Below, piece after piece: positions 8,631 through 45,895 of a stretch of 64,000 nt of DNA (positions within the stretch are counted from its first letter, which is position 1; the number at the start of each line of letters is the position of its first letter). The notes beneath the pieces were generated by a model. It had not been told where the DNA came from, did no database searches, and worked only from the letters and a program-made list of their open reading frames with translations. Source of the DNA: Hyphomicrobiales bacterium (GTDB lineage: Bacteria > Pseudomonadota > Alphaproteobacteria > Rhizobiales > Beijerinckiaceae); the NCBI GenBank assembly GCA_028290705.1, contig JAQGJH010000145.1, positions 1 through 64,000 on the forward strand, written 5' to 3'. The position numbers were made by a program, and so were the translations under genes.

Positions 8631-9851
8631 ATGACTGACCTCACATTGCCGAAGACGGGCGATTTCCGCATCATCAGCGTGATCGGAGCCGCGCATTTCA
8701 CCAGCCACTTCTTTCAGCTCGTCCTGCCGCCGCTCTTCCCCATGATGCGCGAGACGCTCGGCGTGTCCTACACGGAGCTGGGCTTGCTCATGGCGGTGTT
8801 CTTCGCCGCCTCCGGGCTGTTTCAGGTCGGTGCGGGTTTCGTGGTGGACCGGTTCGGCGCGCATATCGTTCTGCCGGCCGGCATGGCTCTTCTGGCCGGC
8901 TCCATCATGGCCATGGGTCTTGTTCCGTCCACCTGGATGCTGTTCGTCTTCGCGGCGCTCGCGGGTGCGGGCAACAGCGTTTATCACCCCGCAGATTATT
9001 CCGTCCTCACGGCGCGCGTCACGCCGAGCCGCATGGCGCGCGCCTATTCGGTTCATTCGGTAACCGGGACGCTGGGCTGGGCGGCTGCGCCCGTCACCGT
9101 GCTGTTTCTGTCGGGCCTGTTCGACTGGCGCGCCGCGCTGGCGATCACGGGCGCGGTGGGTCTCGTCGGCGCCTTTCTGATCCTGCTCGATCGGGACGAC
9201 CTCATCGTTCCCGAGCATCGGGGCAGGGGCGCGGGTCCTCATGGCGACGGCAGGGTTGCGGGCCTTGGCGCGGGCAAGGGAGCGGGTCTGTTCCTGTCGC
9301 CCGCCATCATGATGGCGTTCCTGTATTTCATGTTCCTGTCGATCTCCTTCACGGGACTGCAGAACTACCTCACCATCCTGCTGCCCAAGGTGCAGGGCGT
9401 CAGCATCGTCTTCGCCACGACGCTGACGACGATGTATCTGACGAGCTATGCCTGCGGCTCTCTCGCGGGTGGCTATGTGGCGGACCGAACCACCAACCAC
9501 GATCGCATCATCGCCGGAGGACTGCTGGCGGTCGCGGTCTTGTCCTTGGGCATGGGCTTTCTGTCGATCCCCGGCTTCATCCTCATGCCGATGGCCATGG
9601 CGACGGGCTTCCTCGGCGGCATGACGATTCCGTCTCGCGACATGCTGGTGCGTTCGGCGACGCCGCATGGCGCCACCGGCAAGGTGTTCGGCTTCGTCTA
9701 TTCCGGGCTCGATCTCGGCGCCCTCATCGCGCCGCCGGTCATCGGATACATGCTGGACCACGGCGCCAATCGCGCGCCCTTCGTGCTCATCGCCTGCATC
9801 CTGTGCCTCACGCTCGTGCCGGCCTTCGCGGTCAAGCGCAGCCGGGGCTGA
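8631..9851 (+). CDS. MFS transporter
   Basis: A 406-residue inner-membrane carrier with about 12 hydrophobic segments split by a hydrophilic central loop near residue 200. It has the major-facilitator look, including an early VVDRFGAHIV turn between helices 2 and 3 and YVADRTTNHDR at the equivalent place in the second half. The N terminus (AAHFTSHFFQLVLPPLFP) resembles the fosmidomycin-resistance (Fsr) branch. I start at 8631 because the track start overlaps the preceding terminator. Substrate unknown; drug or metabolite efflux is typical of the branch. Confidence 0.85.
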   Translation: MTDLTLPKTGDFRIISVIGAAHFTSHFFQLVLPPLFPMMRETLGVSYTELGLLMAVFFAASGLFQVGAGFVVDRFGAHIVLPAGMALLAGSIMAMGLVPSTWMLFVFAALAGAGNSVYHPADYSVLTARVTPSRMARAYSVHSVTGTLGWAAAPVTVLFLSGLFDWRAALAITGAVGLVGAFLILLDRDDLIVPEHRGRGAGPHGDGRVAGLGAGKGAGLFLSPAIMMAFLYFMFLSISFTGLQNYLTILLPKVQGVSIVFATTLTTMYLTSYACGSLAGGYVADRTTNHDRIIAGGLLAVAVLSLGMGFLSIPGFILMPMAMATGFLGGMTIPSRDMLVRSATPHGATGKVFGFVYSGLDLGALIAPPVIGYMLDHGANRAPFVLIACILCLTLVPAFAVKRSRG

Positions 9852-9913
9852 TGCGTCGCCAAGCCACGTGCATTCCACTCCTGCAGGGCTTATAAAGACT
9901 GCGGGAGCGCGCC

Positions 9914-10093
9914 ATGTCCGATCGTACGGAACAGCCTGAATTCGTCGAAAGCGATCCGGAGATCGCCCGCCTGGTGTGGCAGATCGCCGGCATCGGAGCG
10001 GCGCTGCTCGGCGGCTCGGCCCTGCTGCTCTGGTGGCACTACGGGCCGATCATTTTCTTCGACTCGCTCGCTGCCCTGCAAAACTGTTTTTGA
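9914..10093 (+). CDS. Small single-span membrane protein, 59 aa
   Basis: This gene is below the ORF-track limit. ATG at 9914 is preceded by GGGAG. It encodes an acidic N terminus (MSDRTEQPEFVESDPE), one hydrophobic helix (about residues 22-42, IAGIGAALLGGSALLLWW) and a short tail. It lies 17 bp before the Sco gene and is probably cotranscribed with it. Single-span proteins often sit beside cytochrome-oxidase assembly genes, so a role in copper delivery or oxidase assembly is possible but unproven. Confidence 0.6.
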   Translation: MSDRTEQPEFVESDPEIARLVWQIAGIGAALLGGSALLLWWHYGPIIFFDSLAALQNCF

Positions 10094-10110
10094 CGGATGA
10101 TGCCTGCCCG

Positions 10111-10698
10111 ATGAATGCCCAGCAGAAGCGCCTTCTCCTTCCCATCGCCATTCTGGCCGTGGGGCTCATCGCCTTGATCGGCACGGCCTTGTTCCTCGTC
10201 GGCGGCAGTCAGGGTGGACGCGCCTCCGCGGTCGGCGGGCCCTTCAGCCTGGTCGACCAGACCGGCGCGCGCGTCACCGAGGCGTCCTACAAGGGTGCGC
10301 CCTCGCTGGTCTTTTTCGGCTTCACGCATTGCCCGGACGTTTGCCCCACCACGCTGTTCGAAATGTCCGAAATCCTTCGCAAACTTCCCAAGGATGCGAA
10401 AATCTCGGCCTTGTTCGTGACGGTCGATCCGGAGCGCGACACGCCCGACGCGCTCAAGTCCTACCTGTCGAGTTTCGATCCGCGCATCTCCGGCCTGTCC
10501 GGCACGCGCGAGGAAGTCGACGCGATGCTCAAGGCTTATCGGGTCTATGCCAAGAAGATCCCGACCGAAAACGGTCAATACACGATGGATCACACCGCCA
10601 TCGTATACATGATGGACAAGCAGGGTCGCTTCGTGAACGCGCTGAACATCCAGCAGCCGCCCGAGGCTGCGGCCCGCGAGATCCAGAAACTCATGTGA
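10111..10698 (+). CDS. SCO1/SenC family copper chaperone
   Basis: The 195-residue protein has an N-terminal membrane anchor (residues 8-31) and a periplasmic thioredoxin-like domain. The copper-binding CxxxC is at Cys74 and Cys78 (HCPDVCPTT) and the third ligand is His161 (MDHTA). Sco proteins deliver copper to, or reduce, the CuA site of cytochrome c oxidase. Length is normal. No oxidase genes are visible here, so it serves an oxidase encoded elsewhere. It follows a small membrane protein and converges with the amino-acid binding protein gene, separated by 3 bp. Confidence 0.92.
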   Translation: MNAQQKRLLLPIAILAVGLIALIGTALFLVGGSQGGRASAVGGPFSLVDQTGARVTEASYKGAPSLVFFGFTHCPDVCPTTLFEMSEILRKLPKDAKISALFVTVDPERDTPDALKSYLSSFDPRISGLSGTREEVDAMLKAYRVYAKKIPTENGQYTMDHTAIVYMMDKQGRFVNALNIQQPPEAAAREIQKLM

Positions 10699-10701
10699 GT
10701 T

Positions 10702-11601
10702 TCAGAAGAATCCGATCGGAAAGAACTTGAGATAGAGCTCGGCATAGAGTCCGCGCTCGTAGACGCGCCGCAGTCCCCAGTCGAGCGCGCGCCGCAGGTC
10801 GCCATTGCCCTTGCGGACGGCAATTCCGACGCCGTCTCCGAAGAAACGGCTTTCCGTATAGGGTCCGCCTGCAAAGACGCAGCAATTCGCCGCGTCCGTC
10901 CCGTTGAGCCAGAGCGACAGCGATACGCCGTCGCCGAAGATGAGCTTCACGTCACCGGACTTCAGAGCCTCCTGGGCTTCCGTGCGCGACGCGAATGCCC
11001 TGATGTCGGCCTGAGGGAAGAACGCCCGCAGAAATGCCTCGTGCGCCGTCCGGGCCTCGACTGCGACGGCCCATCCGGCCAGCGTCTCCGGCGAAAGCAG
11101 GGCAGGCGCGGCATCGGGGCCGTTGCGCCGCGAGACGAAGCGTGCCGGCGTCCTGTAGTAGGGCGCGGTGAAATCCAGTTGCGCGCGATTGGCGGCATTC
11201 ATGGCCAGCGAGGCGATCGCGGCATCAGCCCGGTTTTCCGTGATGGCGGGGATCAGCGTGTCCCAGCGGCGCGGCTGGATCGTGCAGGCGATCTTCAGTT
11301 CTTCGCAAACCGCCCGCGCGAGCTCGACGTTGAATCCCGTCAGCGAACCGTCCGGCAGCGCGAAGTTGAAAGGCGGATAATCGTCCTCGGTGACGAAGCG
11401 GATGAGCCGGATGGCGCCGGTGTCCGGCCGCTCGGCGCGATATTGCGGGTCCCAGAAGCTCGGCACCGGCAGTTCCTGCGCCGCCACGGGCGCAAGCCCG
11501 CCGAGCAGCAGGAGACCGACAGCCAAAGCTTTGCCTTGGAGTTCTGCCGCCCACCGGCTTATGGTCCGGCTCGGAGTTCCGCGGAGCGTTTTCGTGATCA
11601 T
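10702..11601 (-). CDS. Extracellular solute-binding protein, family 3 (amino-acid ABC type)
   Basis: The protein has a signal peptide (LAVGLLLLGGLAPVAAQ) and the family 3 fold: early VTEDDYPPFNF, then GFNVELARAVCEEL, DTLIPAITENRADAAIASLAMN and a C-terminal RRALDWGLRRVYE helix. Such proteins bind polar amino acids or related compounds in the periplasm for an ABC importer. I use the ATG at 11601 (299 aa) because it directly precedes the signal peptide. No permease or ATPase is adjacent. Its 5' end overlaps the start region of the divergent glycosyltransferase. Confidence 0.85.
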   Translation of the reverse strand: MITKTLRGTPSRTISRWAAELQGKALAVGLLLLGGLAPVAAQELPVPSFWDPQYRAERPDTGAIRLIRFVTEDDYPPFNFALPDGSLTGFNVELARAVCEELKIACTIQPRRWDTLIPAITENRADAAIASLAMNAANRAQLDFTAPYYRTPARFVSRRNGPDAAPALLSPETLAGWAVAVEARTAHEAFLRAFFPQADIRAFASRTEAQEALKSGDVKLIFGDGVSLSLWLNGTDAANCCVFAGGPYTESRFFGDGVGIAVRKGNGDLRRALDWGLRRVYERGLYAELYLKFFPIGFF

Positions 11602-35260: not shown

Positions 35261-38200
35261 CTAAAGCGCCGAAACGCGCGCCGTCGTCTTGGAGGAACTG
35301 CTCGGGCCCGGCACGTTGCGGGGCGCCGGAGCCACGTCCGCCCGCGGCGCATTCAGCAATTGCTCGATAGAGGCGGTGTCGTTCGCCGCGGCGCTGGGTT
35401 TGCGGATCTCGAACGTATCCGCCGCCACCTTGGCCTCGGCGAGTTTGCGCGGATCCAGACGCGCGGCGATCTCGTCCCGCTTCTTGCCCGCATCCACGTC
35501 GCCCTGCGTCGCCGCAAGGGCAAACCACAGATAGGATTTCGTCATGTCCTGCTCGACGCCCAGGCCGCGGGCGAACAGAATTGCAAGATTGTACTGGCTG
35601 TCGCGCACTCCATGTTCGGCCGCATTGCGGAACCAGGCCGCGGCCTGGCCGTAGTCCGGCTTGCCGTCGATGCCGTCGGCGATCAGAACCGCGAGATTGT
35701 GCATGGCCCGCACGTTCCCGTTGTTCGCCGCCTTGCGATACCATTGTGCGGCCTCGGTCGCGGATTTCGTGACGCCCAGACCTTTTTCGTAAAGTGCGCC
35801 CAGCCGGTACTGCGAGGGCGCATGATTCTTGTCGGCCGCCTTGCGGAACCAGGTGGCCGCAAGCGCCGGATCGCGCTTGGCCTCGCGGCCGTCGGCAAGG
35901 CGCGACGCCAGTTCGAATTGCGCCACAACGTTTCCGGCATTCGCCAGGCTCGTGAGGCTCGCGACCGAAGGCTGCTGCACCGGGATGGCGCTGACCGTCA
36001 TCCCGTCGACCCCGGGGCTCCCGAGGGCACTCGCAACGGTTGGCGCGGCTACGGTGGCGGGCTCGCGTTTCTCGGGCTCGGGCGTTGCGACCGCTGCAAC
36101 GTCTGCCGGCGCAGGGGTGACGACTTGCGCCTGCTTGTCGACGGGGCTCGGAGCAGCGCCCGAAAGCTTCGGCAGCGCCTCGACCTGCTCGTTCTCGGTC
36201 GGCGACACGTCCGTCACGCTGCGGGCGATCTGCAGGGCGCCCAGCAGCAGGACCAATCCCGCGAGGCTGAGCAGGATCGGCCGCGTCTTGCCCTTGAACA
36301 GGCCGCCGGTTCCGCCGTCCTTGGTCTTCTGCCGATCGAAGGAAGCGGCTGCGGCGCGGGCGCGGGAGCGGGCTTCGGACAGCGCGCTCTCCACGGACGC
36401 GGACATGCGCTCGGAGACGGGTCCGAATTCCGGCGCATCGCTTGGCGCAGTGGTCTGGGCGGCGCGTCGGGCTGCCGCGATGAAACTCGCCTGCGCGGCG
36501 CGCGGCTCGTCGCCCATCGCCAGCGAGGCGTCCTGATGGGCGGTCGTCGCACCGGATGACGCCGGAGCTTCGGCGCGGTCGCCGCCGCGACGCGGCGCAA
36601 AACCCGAGCCGGGCTCGATCAGCACGTCGGGCGCCTCTGCGCGCGGTTCGCTCGCGGCAACGTCCGACTCGCGCAGGCCGGCATGGCCAGCCGCGATCAG
36701 CGGCATGGTGGCGGGCGGCAGGCGATCTGCGACGGGGCGCGGCATGTCTGCCTCGCGCGGCAGCTCAGGAAGTTCTTCTCTCTCTGCGACGGGACGGGCG
36801 CGTTCGAACACCGGCGGCGCACCGGCGGCCATCGGTTCGTCCTGCGCGGCCTCGAGGCTGCGCATTTCGCCGAGATCGTCTTCGAGAAGCGCGAGGCGAT
36901 CGACGACTTTCTCGAGCGTTTCGTGGACGGCGGTCAGCGTCGAATGCGTGCGCCTGTCGGATTCGTCCTGAAGTGTGCGAAGTTCGGAAATCTCGCGGAC
37001 GATCAAATCGGGCGCGAGACTCGTGGCGCCCGTGCCGCCTGAGACGCGAACGGCCTCGCGCGCAGCCGCTTCCGCAGCGTCCACGGCGGCATGCCGCGTC
37101 TCTTCGAGCTGCGCGAACAGATCCGTCATGGCGCGTTCGAGCGCGCCGATGGAATCGGCCGTCTCGCCAGAGCGGTCGAGCCGCTCGGACAGCCGCATGA
37201 TCTGGTTTTCAAGCGCCTGCAGCGCGCGGGTGTCGCCCTGGCCGCTGCTGATGCGATCGATCCGTTCGGCGAGTTGCGCCACCATGTCCTGCAGGCGGTC
37301 GTCCGGAACGGCCGGCTGCGACAGGCTTTCGCTCTGTCGCACGACGGCGCGGTGAACGTCGTCGATGCGGTGGCTGAGGTCGGCGATCTTGCCCTCGACC
37401 AGGGGATTGGCGGACTGTGACGCCGTCATGTCCAGCCGCTGGATCAGGGCATCGTGCAGGTCCGAAATGCGGCTGTAGATTTTTTGCGACTCGGTCGCGG
37501 TCGCGGTCTCGGCCGATGCCGTGCGCGGCGTCGCGATGGCGCCGTCGATCTTGCGGGCAAGGTCCGCCACCTGCGCTTCGATGGAGCGCAGGCCCGGCTG
37601 CTCCGACATGCGCTCGATCGACACGCGCATCTGGTCGAGCGTGTCGGCCAGTTGTTCGGCAAGTCCGGTGTCGTTCGCCGGCAGAGCGCCGAGGCCTGTC
37701 TGCAGAGCGCTGACTCCCGCATTGGCCGCCATGCGGTCGATCGAGGTGCGGATGTCATGCAGTGTGTCTACGAGGTGATCGGGCAGCGAGAAGGAGCGCG
37801 CCGAGAGCTGCGCGACCTGCGCTTCGATGGCGCGCAGCGCGGGATTGCCCGACATTTTCTCGATGGAATGCTGGAGTTCGGCCAGCATGTCGATGAGTTG
37901 CGGCGGCAGATCGCCGGAGCGCGAGGCGATGTCCGTCACCTGCTTCTGCACCGCGCGCAGCGCCGGGTTGGCCGCCACGCTGTCGATCGAGCGGCGCATG
38001 TCCTCGAGCATGTCGACCAGATAGGGCGGCAGGTCGCCGGAGCGGTTCGCCAGATCCGAGACGCGGGCTTCGACGTCGCGCAGCGTCGGGTTGGAATCCA
38101 GGCGGTCGATGGAGGCGCGGATCGAGTCGAGCGTTTCGACGAGATAGGGAGACACGCTGTCGGCCCGCGCCGCGAGATCCTCGACGCGATCGGTCAGCAT

Positions 38201-39724
38201 CGCGACCTGGCGCTCGAGACCTTCGATCGGGATCGGCCGCGCGAGGACCTGCGCGAGAACATGCGCGATGTCGTCGGTCTTGCGCTTCAGGGCCTCGAAG
38301 GAATGGCGGTCGAATCCGTGCGCCGCCATGGCGTCGATCTTCACGTGCAGGCGGCTGAGCTCCGCCTGGACGTCGTCGACGATGCGCGCCGGGCCTGACT
38401 GCTCGACCGATGTCCGAATTTCGGCGAGGATCTGTTCGATCGGCTGCAGCGATTGGTTGTCGACGCCGATGCGGCGCGACTCGTCGATGCGATGCGCGAG
38501 ATCCTGGATGGCGCGTTCGAGCGCATCCGAAGACCCGCGCTGCGCGAGGCTGCGGATTGCCTCGGAAATTTCGTTCAGCTGCAGACGCAGGAAGGTGATG
38601 TCGGGATGCGACGGCATCTCGGTGCGCCGGCGGTCTTCACTCTCGCGGCTCTCGCGGCGCAGGCGATCGACCTTGTCGGCCAGGCTCGAAATACCGCTCT
38701 GCAGCGCCACTTGAAAATCGTCGCGCCCGCTCCGCTGCGGGGCGCTCGCATAGATCGGCGTCGTCAGGGCGTCACCGGCGGCGGGAAGCCGTCCGCGACG
38801 GCCGATCTCCGCAAGCCCGCCATCGAGCGCACGCTGGCGGCGAACGATTTCGGAAACCGCTTCCGCGGTTGCTCCCGAGGGAGTCGGGCGTCCCGCCGGA
38901 AACACGACTTCGCTGGGCGCCTCCAGCGATGAGAGCAGGCGGTTGAGCTTGTCTTCGATGCGGCGCATGTGCTCGCCGCCTTCGGAAGCTTGTGGCTTGG
39001 CTGCCTCGCTCGGCAGACGCTCTGCCAGACGTGCGAGTTGCCCCTCGATGTCTTCGAGAGCCTGATCGACTTTGCCGGACTTGTCCTTGCTGCGCGCCAG
39101 ATGCTCGACGCGCGCTTCGAGGCTTTCCATCGCCAGCCGCAGGCCGCGCGCATGTTCGGGCTCGTCGCGGCTCGAGATGTGACTTTCGATTTCGGCGAGA
39201 CGGCTGGCGACCTTGCCGAGCGCCTGGTCGGTACGCAGCGCATGGTCGCGATGGCGGCGCTCGAATATCTGCACCGCATGGTCGAGCAGGTCGTCCGAGG
39301 GCGCTTCGGCCGCGCGGGAGCGCTGAGCCCGGCCGCGCGGAGCGGAGTCCTCGCTTTCGGCTTCATGGGCCCGGCGCACGTCCACGCGTCTGCGGCGGAC
39401 CGGCGGCTCGTCGCGATCGTCGAACTCCTGCTCCGCCTCTTCGAAGCGGGCCTCACGCGCCGGAGCGCGGCGGGCGGAACGAACGGGCCGGCGCGGGGTG
39501 CGTTGCTCCCCCTCGGACAGGCGCGCGAGACGCGCCGTCACGGCTTCGATCTGCTCTTCCGCGTCGATGTCCTCGTAGTCCAGCCCGGTTTCCCGGGCGC
39601 GCTCGGCGATGACGCTGTGCAGCCATTCCCCGACCGACATGCCGGAACGACGCGCTGCGTCTTTGGCGGCTTCGCGGGCATCGAATCCGACGCCCTTGAT
39701 GCTCCAGGGAACAGACTTGTTCAT
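35261..39724 (-). CDS. podJ: PodJ-like polar organising protein with coiled coils, membrane span and Sel1 repeats
   Basis: A giant protein of about 1487 residues. The N terminus (SVPWSIKGVGFDAREAAKDAARRSGMSVGEWL) is the conserved head of PodJ-type proteins. A charged Arg/Glu-rich stretch and long coiled coils follow (about 170-950), including five tandem 41-residue repeats. One membrane helix lies near residue 1185 (ILLSLAGLVLLLGAL). The periplasmic C-terminal part has Sel1/TPR-like repeats (AATWFRKAADKNHAPSQYRLG, AAQWYRKAANNGNVRAMHNLA, AAAWFRNAAEHG). PodJ marks the new cell pole and recruits development or cell-cycle regulators in Caulobacter and rhizobia. The ATG at 39724 begins close to the conserved head; 39754 is an alternative. 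Confidence 0.85.
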   Translation of the reverse strand: MNKSVPWSIKGVGFDAREAAKDAARRSGMSVGEWLHSVIAERARETGLDYEDIDAEEQIEAVTARLARLSEGEQRTPRRPVRSARRAPAREARFEEAEQEFDDRDEPPVRRRRVDVRRAHEAESEDSAPRGRAQRSRAAEAPSDDLLDHAVQIFERRHRDHALRTDQALGKVASRLAEIESHISSRDEPEHARGLRLAMESLEARVEHLARSKDKSGKVDQALEDIEGQLARLAERLPSEAAKPQASEGGEHMRRIEDKLNRLLSSLEAPSEVVFPAGRPTPSGATAEAVSEIVRRQRALDGGLAEIGRRGRLPAAGDALTTPIYASAPQRSGRDDFQVALQSGISSLADKVDRLRRESRESEDRRRTEMPSHPDITFLRLQLNEISEAIRSLAQRGSSDALERAIQDLAHRIDESRRIGVDNQSLQPIEQILAEIRTSVEQSGPARIVDDVQAELSRLHVKIDAMAAHGFDRHSFEALKRKTDDIAHVLAQVLARPIPIEGLERQVAMLTDRVEDLAARADSVSPYLVETLDSIRASIDRLDSNPTLRDVEARVSDLANRSGDLPPYLVDMLEDMRRSIDSVAANPALRAVQKQVTDIASRSGDLPPQLIDMLAELQHSIEKMSGNPALRAIEAQVAQLSARSFSLPDHLVDTLHDIRTSIDRMAANAGVSALQTGLGALPANDTGLAEQLADTLDQMRVSIERMSEQPGLRSIEAQVADLARKIDGAIATPRTASAETATATESQKIYSRISDLHDALIQRLDMTASQSANPLVEGKIADLSHRIDDVHRAVVRQSESLSQPAVPDDRLQDMVAQLAERIDRISSGQGDTRALQALENQIMRLSERLDRSGETADSIGALERAMTDLFAQLEETRHAAVDAAEAAAREAVRVSGGTGATSLAPDLIVREISELRTLQDESDRRTHSTLTAVHETLEKVVDRLALLEDDLGEMRSLEAAQDEPMAAGAPPVFERARPVAEREELPELPREADMPRPVADRLPPATMPLIAAGHAGLRESDVAASEPRAEAPDVLIEPGSGFAPRRGGDRAEAPASSGATTAHQDASLAMGDEPRAAQASFIAAARRAAQTTAPSDAPEFGPVSERMSASVESALSEARSRARAAAASFDRQKTKDGGTGGLFKGKTRPILLSLAGLVLLLGALQIARSVTDVSPTENEQVEALPKLSGAAPSPVDKQAQVVTPAPADVAAVATPEPEKREPATVAAPTVASALGSPGVDGMTVSAIPVQQPSVASLTSLANAGNVVAQFELASRLADGREAKRDPALAATWFRKAADKNHAPSQYRLGALYEKGLGVTKSATEAAQWYRKAANNGNVRAMHNLAVLIADGIDGKPDYGQAAAWFRNAAEHGVRDSQYNLAILFARGLGVEQDMTKSYLWFALAATQGDVDAGKKRDEIAARLDPRKLAEAKVAADTFEIRKPSAAANDTASIEQLLNAPRADVAPAPRNVPGPSSSSKTTARVSAL
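37535..38149 (-). repeat. Five tandem 41-residue (123-bp) repeats inside podJ
   Basis: Within the PodJ-like protein the pattern PYLVDMLEDMRRSID..aNPALRaieaQVadLa.rSgdLP recurs five times with an exact 41-residue period, with no insertions. Copies start PYLVETL, PYLVDML, PQLIDML, DHLVDTL and EQLADTL. The copies are diverged at DNA level, so this is an old, functionally constrained array of helix pairs, not a recent slippage product. Confidence 0.85.
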
Positions 39725-40029
39725 CGTCACGCCCACAGGCCCGGCATCCTTCATTCCAAAGACATGGAGCGCGTCGTGAACGCCTTGCCGATTCGACCGC
39801 CCCAGAGGGACTGTCGTGCAGTCTTGGTAAACACGGCGTTAAGGCTGACTTCTTTTGGCACAGGTGCAGCCAGCTCAGGGACTTTGCCGGTCTGCCCGCA
39901 ACCGTACGCTGCTGCAATCTCAGGTTGCAAAGATCAGCGACTCACCTTCTACTCGCTTACGTTGTATATGGCGGGGTTACTCGCGTTTTAGTTGCAATTC
40001 ATTTCACTCCTTTGATTGACGAGGCGACG

Positions 40030-40515
40030 ATGCTCACTCAAGACCTTGCAGCGCGCATTCCCGCTGCTTTCGAAAAACGCGTTGGGTCGGAAGCGGTTAC
40101 ATCCTCAGCGGGCACCCAGCACGACGCTCCCGAATCCGATTTCTTCACCATCGGCGACATCGCCCGCACCTACGGCGTCAGCCTCAGGGCGCTGCGCTTC
40201 TACGAAGAGCGGCAACTGCTGCAGCCCGAGCGGCGCGGCATGGTTCGCCTGTATGACGCAGAGGCGCGCGCGCGCCTCGAAGTCATCCTGAAGGGCAAGC
40301 AGCTCGGATTCACCCTGACGGAAATCCGCGACATGCTCGAGGCTGACGGCCATCAGGGCGGGCTGTCGCTCGCTCCCGGCCAGGTGGTCGACCAGATCGC
40401 CATGCTGGAGCGCCAAAGAGGCGACATCGACAAGGCCATAGAGGAACTTCGAGCGACCCAGCACCGCCTGGAAGCGGCGTGCCGGAGCGACGGTCCGGTG
40501 GCGCAGGTCGCCTGA
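40030..40515 (+). CDS. MerR family transcriptional regulator
   Basis: A regulator of about 161 residues. The MerR winged helix-turn-helix is FTIGDIARTYGVSLRALRFYEERQLLQPERRGMVRLYD (about residues 36-75), followed by the dimerisation helix and a C-terminal helix without the paired Cys of metal sensors. ATG 40030 has GAGG five bases upstream; the track start at 39925 lies in the promoter region. It precedes the beta-oxidation operon by 112 bp on the same strand, a conserved arrangement in Hyphomicrobiales, so it probably controls fatty-acid degradation. Confidence 0.85.
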   Translation: MLTQDLAARIPAAFEKRVGSEAVTSSAGTQHDAPESDFFTIGDIARTYGVSLRALRFYEERQLLQPERRGMVRLYDAEARARLEVILKGKQLGFTLTEIRDMLEADGHQGGLSLAPGQVVDQIAMLERQRGDIDKAIEELRATQHRLEAACRSDGPVAQVA

Positions 40516-40567
40516 CTGGATCGAAAGCATCCGCTCTTGCGCGAGCGGGGATGAGCCGCATTCCCCT

Positions 40568-40611
40568 TGAACTCGGTCGCGATTTGGTTTACATATAAAC
40601 TAAATCGCGAT
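40568..40611 (+). promoter_or_regulatory. 34-bp palindromic operator overlapping the beta-oxidation promoter
   Basis: Bases 40578-40611 (TCGCGATTTGGTTTACAT / ATAAACTAAATCGCGA) form a near-perfect palindrome with 30 of 34 bases symmetric. A possible -35 TTGAAC (40568-40573) and -10 TACATA (40591-40596) with 17-bp spacing place the palindrome over the -10 region, so a bound repressor would block transcription of the acyl-CoA dehydrogenase operon, which begins 17 bp further on. Confidence 0.75.
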
Positions 40612-40627
40612 CACTCGGGAGGTCGGC

Positions 40628-42421
40628 ATGCCCACCTACAAGGCGCCTGTAGCGGATGTGAAATTCCTTCTGAACGACGTGTTCGGCTGGGAGAAATACA
40701 GCAATCTCCCGGGCTTTTCGGATGCGACGCCCGACGTCGTCGAGGCCATTCTGGAAGAGGGCGCAAAGCTCTGCGAAGAGGTCCTGCAGCCGCTCAACGC
40801 CACCGGCGATCGCGAGGGCTGCCACCGCGCGGCCGATGGATCGGTCAGCACGCCGAAGGGTTTCAAGCAGGCCTATGAGGCCTTCACGCAGGGCGGCTGG
40901 GTCGGCCTGTCGGCGGATCCTGAATTCGGCGGACAGGGCCTGCCCTACACGATCGCGGCCGTGATGAACGAGTTCGCCTCCGCGGCCAACATGGCTTTCT
41001 CCATGTACCCGGGCCTGACGCAGGGCGCGCTCGCGGCGCTTCTCGTGCATGGAAGCGACGAGCAGAAGCAGCTTTACGCTCCCAAAATGATCTCGGGCGC
41101 CTGGTCGGGCACCATGAACCTCACCGAGCCCCATTGCGGCACCGATCTCGGCCTGCTGAAGAGCAAGGCCGTGCCAAATGGCGATGGTTCCTATGCGATC
41201 ACCGGCCAGAAGATCTTCATATCCGCGGGCGAACACGATCTGGCGGACAACATCGTGCATCTCGTGCTCGCCCGGATCGAAGGCGCGCCGGCCGGCACCA
41301 AAGGAATCTCGCTCTTCATCGTGCCGAAATTCGTGCCGGACGCGAGCGGCGCACCGGGCGAGCGAAACCCGCTGTCCTGCGGCTCGATCGAGCACAAGAT
41401 GGGCATTCACGGCAATTCGACCTGCGTGATGAATTACGACGGCGCGAAGGGCTGGCTGCTGGGCCAGGAGAACCGCGGCCTCAACGCCATGTTCGTGATG
41501 ATGAACGAAGCCCGTCTCGGAGTCGCCATCCAGGGGTTGGCCCAATCGGAAGTCGCCTACCAGAACGCCGCCGCCTACGCCAAGGAACGTCTGCAGAGCC
41601 GCTCTCTCTCCGGGCCGAAAAATCCGGAAAAGCCTGCCGACCCGATCATCGTTCATCCCGACGTGCGGCGCATGCTGCTCGAGATCCGGGCGTTCAACGA
41701 AGCCGCGCGCGCGCTCGTGCTGTGGACGGCGCTGAAGAGCGACGTGGCCCATCGCTCCGGCGACGAGGCGACGATCCGCGCCGCCGACGACATGCTCGGA
41801 CTGATGACGCCGGTGCTCAAGGGCGTGCTGACGGACGTCGGCTTCGCCAACACCGTCAAGGCCCAGCAGGTGTTCGGCGGACACGGCTACGTCGGCGAAT
41901 GGGGCATGGAGCAATTCGTCCGCGATGCCCGCATCGCCATGATCTACGAGGGCGCGAACGGCATCCAGGCGCTGGATCTCGTCGGCCGCAAGCTGCCCAA
42001 GGACGGCGGCCGCGCGGTCATGACCTTCTTCAACGAAGTCGGTTCGTGGCTGAAGACCAATGACGGCGAGGAAGCCCTGAAGCCCTTCGTCAAGGGTCTC
42101 AAGGCGGGTCTGGACGATCTGCAGAAAGCCACCATGTGGTTCATGCAGAACGCCATGGCCAAGCCCGACAATGCCGGGGCTGGATCGACCGACTACATGC
42201 ATCTGTTCGGCCTCGTGGCGCTCGGCTTCATGTGGGCCCAGATCGCCGCCGTGGCGGTCGCCAAGAAGGCGGCCGAGCCCGACAGCCTTGCTGCCATGGA
42301 CGCCAAATTGCTGACAGGAAAATTCTTCATGGAGCGTATGATGCCCGAAACGGCCGTGCATCTGGCGCGGATCAGCACGGGCGCCGAGACCATGATGGCG
42401 TTGCCCGCCGAGGCTTTCTGA
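40628..42421 (+). CDS. Acyl-CoA dehydrogenase, long C-terminal-domain type
   Basis: A 597-residue flavoprotein that introduces the alpha-beta double bond in acyl-CoA, the first step of beta-oxidation. Features include the ACD N-terminal helices, [19 protein letters not shown] with the FAD/substrate loop, IFISAGEHD, and [39 protein letters not shown], where the Glu of YEG is the likely catalytic base. The extra about 150-residue C-terminal domain puts it in the FadE5/DmdC-like branch. GGAGG precedes the ATG. First gene of the operon with thiolase and a FadJ-type protein. Confidence 0.92.
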
Positions 42422-42458: not shown

Positions 42459-43667
42459 ATGACCGACGCTTTCATCTACGACCACGTGCGCACGCCGCGT
42501 GGGCGCGGCAAGCCCGACGGTGCGCTGCATGAAGTCTCCACCCTCGGTCTCGCCACCAGCGCGCTCAAGGCGCTCCAGGCGCGAAGCCAGCTCGACACCA
42601 ATCTGGTGGATGACGTGGTGCTGGGCTGCGTTGATCCGGTGGGTGAGGCGGGCGGCGACATCGCCCGCGCGGCGGCGCTCGCCTCGGGCTTCGGCGACCA
42701 CGTTCCGGGCATCCAGATCAACCGCTTCTGCGCTTCCGGACTCGATGCGGTGAATTTCGCCGCCGCGCAGGTCATGTCCGGCCAGCACGACATGGCGATC
42801 GGCGGCGGTGTGGAATCCATGAGCCGCGTCGGCATCGGCGCATCGGGCGGCGCCTGGCCGGTGGATCCCGCCATCGCCATCCCCTCCTATTTCATGCCCC
42901 AGGGCGTGTCCGCCGATCTCATCGCCACCAAATACGGATTCTCGCGCGATCAGGTCGACGCCTATGCGGTGGAGAGCCAGAAGCGCGCTGCGGCCGCCTG
43001 GAGCGAGGGGCGCTTCGACCGCTCCGTCGCGCCGGTCCGCGACGTCAACGGGCTGACCATCCTCGCCAAAGACGAGCACATGCGGCCCCAGACGGACATG
43101 CAGTCGCTCGGCCAGCTCAAGCCTTCCTTCGTCATGATGGCCGAGCAGGGCGGTTTCAACGCCGTCGCTATCCAGGCGCATCCCGAAATCGAAAAACTCA
43201 ACCACGTGCATCATGCCGGCAACTCCTCCGGCATCGTCGACGGCGCGGCCGCCGTGCTGCTCGGTTCGGCCCAGGCGGGGGCGGCCGCCGGGCTGAAGCC
43301 GCGTGCGCGCATCCGCGCCTTCGCCAACGTCGGTTCGGAGCCCGCATTGATGCTCACCGGTCCGGTGGACGTGACCCGCAAGGTTTTGAAGCGTGCCGGC
43401 ATGACCATCGGCGACATCGACCTGTTCGAGGTCAACGAGGCTTTCGCCGCCGTGGTGCTGCGCTTCATGCAGGCCTTTGATCTCGACGCCAGCCGCATCA
43501 ACGTCAATGGCGGCGCCATCGCGCTCGGCCATCCGCTCGGCGCGACCGGCGCCATGCTGATCGGCACGGCCATCGACGAATTGGAGCGCAGCGGCAAATC
43601 GACGGCGCTGATCACGCTCTGCATCGGGGCCGGCATGGGCACCGCGACCATCATCGAGCGCGTTTGA
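42459..43667 (+). CDS. Acetyl-CoA C-acyltransferase (thiolase)
   Basis: A 402-residue thiolase that cleaves 3-ketoacyl-CoA with CoA to give acetyl-CoA in the last beta-oxidation step. The nucleophilic Cys is in [11 protein letters not shown] (about residue 92), with GGVESMSRV, the histidine in [15 protein letters not shown] and the second Cys in CIGAGMGTA near the C terminus. GAGGA precedes the start. It lies 37 bp after the dehydrogenase and 17 bp before the next gene, so all three are cotranscribed. Confidence 0.93.
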
Positions 43668-43684
43668 GGGCGGGAGGACACGTC

Positions 43685-45895
43685 ATGGACCTGAAGAATT
43701 TCCGCTTCGAAACGGACACCGACGGCATCGCGCTCCTCACCTGGGACATGCCGGGCCGCTCCATGAACGTCATCACCGAAGAGGTGATGAACGAACTCGA
43801 GAGCGTCATCGATCACGTCGCGGCAGACGCCGCCGTCAAGGGCTGCGTCATTGCGTCAGGCAAGGACACGTTTTCAGGCGGGGCCGATCTCGGCATGCTC
43901 GATGAGTCGAGCCGCCGCTATGTCGAAATGGTGGAAAGCCATGGCGCGGAAGCCGCCATGCAGGCGTTCTTCGACGGAACGCGTCGCCTGACGTTGCTCT
44001 ATCGCAAGCTCGAAACGAGCGGCAAGCCGTGGGTCGCTGCCATCGACGGCACCTGCCTCGGCGGAGCCTTCGAGCTCGCGCTCGCCTGCCACTTCCGCGT
44101 CTTGTCCGATTCGCCGAAGACCCGCGTCGGGCTGCCGGAAATCAAGGTCGGGCTGTTCCCGGGAGCCGGTGGCACGCAGCGCGTCGCGCGTCTGATGCAG
44201 ACCGGCGACGCCTTGCAGATGCTGTTCAAGGGCGAGCAGATCCGCGCGGCCGCCGCCAAGTCCATGGGCCTCGTGCATCTCGTCGTGCCCAGGGACGAGA
44301 TGATCGCCAAGGCGAAGGAATGGATCGCCGCCGGCAACAAGGGCGTGGCGCCGTGGGACGATCCGAAATTCCGTCCGCCGTCCGGCAAGGTGTTCTCGCC
44401 CGCCGGCATGATGGTCTGGCCCGCCGCCAACGCCATTTATCGCCGCGAGACGATGGACAATTATCCGGCCGCCAAGGCCATCCTGCATGCCGTCTACGAA
44501 GGCCTGCAGTTGCCCATGGATCTCGCCCTGAAGGTCGAGAGCCGATGGTTCGCCAACATCCTGCGCTCGAAGGAGGCGCGCGCGATGATCCGCTCGCTCT
44601 TCGTCTCCATGGGCGAACTCAACAAGGGCGCGCGCCGTCCCGCCGCCGAACCGCCCGCGAAGATTTCGAAAGTTGGAATCATCGGCGCGGGCTTCATGGG
44701 CGCGAGCATCGCCTATGTGGCGGCGCTGAACGGCATCGAGGTGGTGCTGATCGATCGTGACGTCGAAGCGGCCGAGAAGGGCAAGGCGCATTCGCACAAG
44801 CTCATATCGGGCCAGATCGCCAAGGGTCGCGCCAAGACGGCGGAGCGCGACGCGCTGCTCGAAAAGATCACGCCCTCGGCCGATTATGCGAGCCTCGCGG
44901 GCTGCGATCTCGTGATCGAAGCCGTGTTCGAGGACCGCAACGTCAAGGCCGAGGCCATGAAGAAGGCCGACGCCGCAATGTCGCCCGGCACGATCTTCGC
45001 GTCCAACACCTCGACGCTTCCGATCACCTCGCTGGCGGAAAATGCGCAGCGGCCCGAGGATTTCATCGGCATCCACTTCTTCTCGCCGGTCGAGCGGATG
45101 ATGCTCGTCGAGGTCATCGTCGGCAAGCGCACCGGCGATCGCGCGCTCGCGACGGCGCTCGATTTCGTCCGCATGATCCGCAAGACCCCGATCGTGGTGA
45201 ACGACTCGCGCGGCTTCTATGCCAATCGCTGCGTCTTGAACTACGTGCGCGAAGGCCATCTGATGTTCGCCGAGGGCGTGCCGCCCGCCATGATCGAAAA
45301 CGTCGCCCGCATGGCCGGCATGCCGGTCGGTCCGCTGTCGCTCAACGACGAAGTCGCGCTCGACCTCGCCTGGAAGATCCTCCAGGCCACCAAGGCCGAC
45401 CTCGGCGCGGAGGCAGTCGATCCGCTGCAGGAGCGGCTGCTCGACGATCTGGTCAATCGCCACGGCCGTCTCGGCCGCAAGAACCTCAAGGGCTTCTACG
45501 ATTATCCCGACAAGGGACCGAAGACGCTCTGGCCCGGTCTCGCGGACCTGCAGAGCGCAAAGGCCAATCCCGATCACCTGAACGTCGAGGACATGAAGCT
45601 GCGCTTTCTCGTCACGCAGGCGCTCGAGGCGGCGCGCACGGTGGAAGAAGGCGTCGTCACCGATCCGCGCGAGGCCGATGTCGGCTCGATCCTGGGCTTC
45701 GGCTTCGCGCCCTTCACGGGTGGAACGCTGAGCTACATCGACGGCATGGGCGTCGCCGAATTCGTCCTGCTCTGCGACCGGCTGGCCAAGACCTATGGCC
45801 CGCGCTTCACCCCGACCGATCTGCTGATCGACATGGCCAAGAAGCACGAGACCTTCTATGGCCGCTTCGGGCGCAAGAGCCGCGCGGCGGCCTGA
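43685..45895 (+). CDS. FadJ-type bifunctional enoyl-CoA hydratase / 3-hydroxyacyl-CoA dehydrogenase
   Basis: The 736-residue protein joins an N-terminal enoyl-CoA hydratase/isomerase domain (SGGADLGML, CLGGAFELALACHFRV, GLPEIKVGLFPGAGGTQRVAR) to a 3-hydroxyacyl-CoA dehydrogenase. The NAD loop is VGIIGAGFMGASIAYVAA (about residue 333), followed by ASNTSTLPI, IGIHFFSPVERM and the C-terminal dehydrogenase domain (GFYANR). It performs hydration and oxidation of enoyl-CoA. GGGAGG seven bases before ATG 43685 fixes the start. Last gene of the operon. Confidence 0.93.
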   Translation: MDLKNFRFETDTDGIALLTWDMPGRSMNVITEEVMNELESVIDHVAADAAVKGCVIASGKDTFSGGADLGMLDESSRRYVEMVESHGAEAAMQAFFDGTRRLTLLYRKLETSGKPWVAAIDGTCLGGAFELALACHFRVLSDSPKTRVGLPEIKVGLFPGAGGTQRVARLMQTGDALQMLFKGEQIRAAAAKSMGLVHLVVPRDEMIAKAKEWIAAGNKGVAPWDDPKFRPPSGKVFSPAGMMVWPAANAIYRRETMDNYPAAKAILHAVYEGLQLPMDLALKVESRWFANILRSKEARAMIRSLFVSMGELNKGARRPAAEPPAKISKVGIIGAGFMGASIAYVAALNGIEVVLIDRDVEAAEKGKAHSHKLISGQIAKGRAKTAERDALLEKITPSADYASLAGCDLVIEAVFEDRNVKAEAMKKADAAMSPGTIFASNTSTLPITSLAENAQRPEDFIGIHFFSPVERMMLVEVIVGKRTGDRALATALDFVRMIRKTPIVVNDSRGFYANRCVLNYVREGHLMFAEGVPPAMIENVARMAGMPVGPLSLNDEVALDLAWKILQATKADLGAEAVDPLQERLLDDLVNRHGRLGRKNLKGFYDYPDKGPKTLWPGLADLQSAKANPDHLNVEDMKLRFLVTQALEAARTVEEGVVTDPREADVGSILGFGFAPFTGGTLSYIDGMGVAEFVLLCDRLAKTYGPRFTPTDLLIDMAKKHETFYGRFGRKSRAAA

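Follow-up and report, generated by a model that had tools for sequence, protein, structure and literature searches.

The window, that is, the whole stretch of 64,000 nucleotides analysed here, carries a 34-bp near-perfect palindrome, TCGCGATTTGGTTTACATATAAACTAAATCGCGA, at positions 40577-40610, between a MerR-family regulator gene (merR, 40030-40515, plus strand, Pfam MerR_1, with its stop at 40515) and the ATG at 40628 of an acyl-CoA dehydrogenase gene (acdh). The latter (40628-42421, plus strand) encodes 597 amino acids with the Pfam domains Acyl-CoA_dh_N/M/1/C, is preceded by the ribosome-binding site GGGAGG (40617-40622, plus strand), and is the first gene of the putatively controlled operon. 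It is followed on the same strand by an acetyl-CoA C-acetyltransferase (thiolase) gene (42459-43667, NCBIfam NF006090 above cut-off) and by a gene for a FadJ-like 3-hydroxyacyl-CoA dehydrogenase/enoyl-CoA hydratase (43664-45895, Pfam 3HCDH_N and ECH_1), whose top NCBIfam match is FadJ, at a score under the FadJ cut-off, and whose listed start is TTG, an ATG at 43685 being plausible as well. Further upstream, at 39826-39843, there is a widely conserved intergenic element, GGTAAACACGGCGTTAAG, which resembles a CtrA-type site and may be one; the intergenic region holding it is shared with a divergent long Sel1-repeat gene (35261-39754), possibly PodJ-like.

The symmetry of the palindrome, already reported in the first-pass annotation, is borne out by direct count: 15 of 17 base pairs, or 30 of the 34 bases, are symmetric. 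Its interval had been given as 40578-40611, which captures the palindrome itself with a start that has to be moved one base leftward. On the whole, this is the top 34-bp dyad anywhere in the window, with about 0.02 such dyads expected per window (mean 0.017 in 60 random sequences of equal length from a first-order Markov model). Within it, matrix score and column conservation define a conserved 22-bp core operator at 40583-40604, TTTGGTTTACATATAAACTAAA, with the family consensus GATAGTTTAYATRTGAACTATC. The core scores 29.1 bits against a matrix derived from 96 other acdh promoters and is the sole match within the window. In the aligned promoters of relatives, strong conservation is confined to offsets -11 to +10 from the dyad centre, and the outer TCGCGA arms are unconserved (no column from -13 outwards exceeds 0.44 bits); the 34-bp length is therefore mostly particular to the window's genome, and one dimer suffices. 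The conserved unit, 20-22 bp around one centre, is close to the usual size of a MarR palindrome and corresponds to one dimer, and the earlier suggestion of two adjacent dimers or a large regulator accordingly finds no support.

The position of the core relative to the promoter is also conserved. In the window, a putative -35 box TTGAAC (40567-40572, plus strand, offset -27 from the dyad centre, assigned from the TTG position in aligned promoters) is separated by a 17-bp spacer from a putative -10 box TACATA (40590-40595, plus strand, assigned from the window sequence and the aligned promoters), and the dyad centre, between 40593 and 40594, lies on the -10 box, just before the acdh ATG, which agrees with the overlap noticed at first. 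We aligned 97 distinct acdh promoters on the dyad centre, many of them gathered via the motif, so that 97 is not to be taken as a frequency; the promoter geometry is unaffected by this way of collection. Of the 97, 41 have TTG at -28 or -27, with a conserved CCCTT(G) there, and given this conserved -35 element and a spacer of 17 bp, the -10 hexamer coincides with the dyad centre. This is the geometry expected of a repressor. The layout of MerR activators, where the dyad lies in an over-long spacer of 19-20 bp, is not what we find here, with a 17-bp spacer and the centre on the -10; what the first-pass annotation had remarked on in a single promoter is thus a conserved geometry in the aligned promoters.

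Across genomes, the core in the form RGTTYAYATRTRAACY occurs without mismatch in 30 of 60 Beijerinckiaceae genomes, in all of which the reversed-pattern control gives zero matches, and the strict form of the motif does not occur in any of 146 genomes from other families of the same order. Absence upstream of orthologous operons had been named as the result that would speak against the element; the core precedes the acdh orthologues in most of the sampled Beijerinckiaceae genomes (35 of 44). When about 85,000 public genomes were scanned, the matches listed were chiefly in Bosea, Methylobacterium/Methylorubrum, Microvirga and other Beijerinckiaceae, and the sites listed, at no fewer than 119 loci, include at least 66 before acdh, at least 17 before the gene of ETF:quinone oxidoreductase (ETF:QO), at least three before etfB and at least one before a second acyl-CoA dehydrogenase gene. 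Further sites were found before fadD-type acyl-CoA ligase genes, fadL and other acyl-CoA dehydrogenase genes. The search near other fad genes proposed at the outset thus places the core before other fad-type genes too. In the window's own genome there are three sites, before acdh (29.1 bits), ETF:QO (25.3 bits) and a second acdh (20.3 bits), scored with a matrix from which the window was left out; they rest on a pattern search and on retrieved loci, and no score of 3 bits or above occurs in 59 kb of background from the same genome. A further site there, C88:8401, was judged to be due to chance, no suitable gene being present.

Several variations on this arrangement were observed. In G014 (locus L088, 8436-11822), apparent transposase genes (9001-10924) lie between the operator and etfBA, which suggests that an insertion cut etfBA off from control. 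In G049 (L094, 6794-8885), fadL with its operator is directly followed by what appears to be a further MarR-type gene. A coherent operator variant, AGTTYAGAGRTGAACT, is found at the same promoter in G012 and G053 (L006 and L198). A close relative in the window's genus, G028 (L196, L098), has neither the motif nor the regulator group MarR-A described below, with some 8 kb between its merR and acdh.

The lead to a MarR protein as the reader of the motif came from the scan of about 85,000 genomes. Of the 32 listed matches that lie elsewhere than in front of fad-type genes, 16 have a MarR gene as neighbour; in 15 cases the match stands immediately before that gene, the organisms being Firmicutes, Elusimicrobia, Marinimicrobia and others, about 15 unrelated bacteria in all; eight of the MarR proteins adjoining listed matches, as well as MarR-A, were confirmed as MarR by Pfam. 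The occurrence of the 20-mer before marR in unrelated phyla (L244, L246, L252, L256, L283, L289, L301, L306, L320, L322, L325, L339, L340, L348 and L352) looks as if some MarR proteins shared one old operator code. We listed the MarR genes of six genomes and clustered them, which gave the orthologue group MarR-A, with the recognition helix RLYVTKGNxSGLxDR. MarR-A is present in 33 of the 60 genomes, all of them motif-bearing (two with the variant core), and absent in 23 without the motif, which makes 31-33 concordant presences and 23 concordant absences (Fisher p = 1.8e-10, a value that ignores relatedness and the fact that several MarR/TetR groups were looked at). On the acdh tree, MarR-A is absent in all five inferred motif losses, two of which retain MerR, the tree-aware motif-loss test having too few starred pairs for significance. 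Across the roughly 110 kb of the 33 MarR-A loci, five matches exceed 15 bits, all of them upstream of marR-A; since only 5 of the 33 marR-A genes have such a near-match, autoregulation is not general. In addition, an acyl-CoA ligase gene adjoins marR-A in 12 of 30 loci, and the variant operators of G012 and G053 come without a matching change in the recognition helix of MarR-A. In the window's own genome, which is 74% complete, MarR-A was not found, the best MarR there being 31% identical, nor was it found in the motif-bearing G023, G043 and G059 (92, 98 and 95% complete, respectively). The HAD-phosphatase neighbour of marR-A in G037 is absent from all six genomes asked and is therefore uninformative on whether the window assembly misses the marR-A neighbourhood. 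The best candidate for the reader is a MarR protein, likely of the MarR-A group; that the window organism has MarR-A we infer, and this is the weakest link of the explanation.

The regulator families compared with the motif were MerR, MarR and TetR. The obvious candidate in the first-pass annotation was the adjacent MerR, which would bind the palindrome and repress or activate the operon, as its gene lies directly upstream in the window and next to acdh in many relatives, and LiuR provides a precedent for a MerR-family repressor of acyl-CoA catabolism (PMC3223726). However, the co-occurrence of MerR with the motif is nil (Fisher p = 1.0; both occur in 23 genomes, the motif without MerR in 12, MerR without the motif in 17 and neither in 8): 12 of the 35 motif-bearing genomes are without this MerR, G009 and G050 have MerR beside acdh yet lack the motif, and in G007 the single MerR-type gene is another family member while the motif still stands at acdh and ETF:QO. 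The dyad is located on the -10 and not inside a spacer of 19-20 bp, and merR has a different candidate 17-bp dyad upstream, TGCAATCTCAGGTTGCA (39913-39929, plus strand), assigned by its match to a consensus upstream of merR. Of 30 loci, 12 have a dyad of this type before merR that agrees with the consensus at 14 or more of its 16 positions, against 0 of 30 when the sequence is reversed, the consensus having been chosen on the same data on which it was scored; this dyad is probably MerR's own operator. Because it does not co-occur with the motif and has a candidate operator of its own, we reject MerR as the reader, a role that now appears improbable for it.

It is rather less improbable, although still unlikely, that another unlinked regulator (a PetP-like second MarR group, a GntR protein or other) reads the motif and MarR-A is merely co-distributed with it. 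Four motif genomes have no detectable MarR-A, and two other MarR groups, PetP-like and LdtR-like, are conserved in the genomes sampled; however, the motif is absent upstream of their genes, and we do not retain these two groups as readers. The smallest motif genome, G039, has two TetR-type hits only, one COQ9-like and one beside malate dehydrogenase, both without the motif, and a TetR reader of the PsrA or FadP type was rejected, neither hit being plausible or linked to the motif. The near-matches before marR-A and its acyl-CoA ligase neighbour, by comparison, favour MarR-A. As for a chance or structural feature (a cruciform or a terminator) with no cognate protein, to which the unconserved outer arms TCGCGA..TCGCGA would be agreeable, it is hardly credible given that the 22-bp core is conserved base by base across many genera and stands at unlinked genes of one pathway, while the controls are zero.

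We therefore return to MarR-A, and consider it likely that a MarR-family repressor controls a β-oxidation regulon in Beijerinckiaceae with the palindrome as its operator, the repressor probably being MarR-A. The site, its conservation, its target genes, the promoter geometry and the co-distribution with MarR-A are established at the level of sequence, and MarR-A would bind there and repress. One MarR dimer would occupy the 20-22-bp core GATAGTTTAYATRTGAACTATC, and, with the -10 on the dyad centre, the bound repressor would keep RNA polymerase from the promoter. On activation of fatty acids, an acyl-CoA, probably the releasing ligand, would bind the repressor and release it; this step is proposed for a MarR dimer occluding the -10 by analogy with BadR and CouR. 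Release would turn on acdh, thiolase and fadJ together with the second acyl-CoA dehydrogenase, ETF and ETF:quinone oxidoreductase, as well as the acyl-CoA ligases and, in places, fadL. On a wider scale, it seems somewhat more probable than otherwise that in Beijerinckiaceae (Methylobacterium, Microvirga, Bosea and others) a MarR repressor takes the place of FadR, PsrA and FadP and governs fatty-acid oxidation all the way from uptake and activation to the transfer of electrons to quinone, and that in some species a separate MerR acts on the same operon as a further layer.

Methylobacterium, Microvirga and Bosea are commonly met on plants and in soil, yet we found no described regulator by which they switch fat burning on. 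Six typical core sequences have no match in the literature searched, and no MarR- or MerR-type regulator of fatty-acid degradation in this group was found in it, subscription literature and RegPrecise being outside the search. Most likely, the motif is a DNA switch common to dozens of related soil bacteria and belongs to a fatty-acid control circuit for which we found no description. With the motif, the target genes can be listed directly, and there is one candidate protein.

Among the known systems, MarR proteins usually bind palindromes of 16-20 bp, and CouR is a MarR repressor of a β-oxidation-like pathway that is released by CoA thioesters (PMC10458429); repression by BadR is likewise lifted by CoA thioesters (PMC9795900). 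The circuit proposed here resembles BadR and CouR, both MarR repressors of CoA-thioester catabolism, in that a CoA-ligase gene often adjoins marR-A. It differs from BadR, whose operator CAATnnATTG overlaps the -35 and serves one alicyclic/aromatic cluster, whereas here an AT-rich dyad of 20-22 bp lies on the -10 and is spread over many fatty-acid and electron-transfer genes. LiuR is a MerR-type repressor of branched-chain amino acid degradation and acyl-CoA catabolism that has been proposed for an alphaproteobacterium as well (PMC3223726, PMC7238569), and thus offers a likeness to the adjacent MerR, which, however, does not co-occur with the motif. The known regulators of fatty-acid degradation in Proteobacteria are FadR (GntR) and PsrA and FadP (both TetR) (PMC5343134). 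With these the proposed regulon shares the target pathway and the scattered layout, but they belong to other protein families, and the motif here is specific to Beijerinckiaceae among the families sampled. If the proposal is true, a MarR protein joins the unrelated regulators to which control of this pathway has passed in different lines of bacteria.
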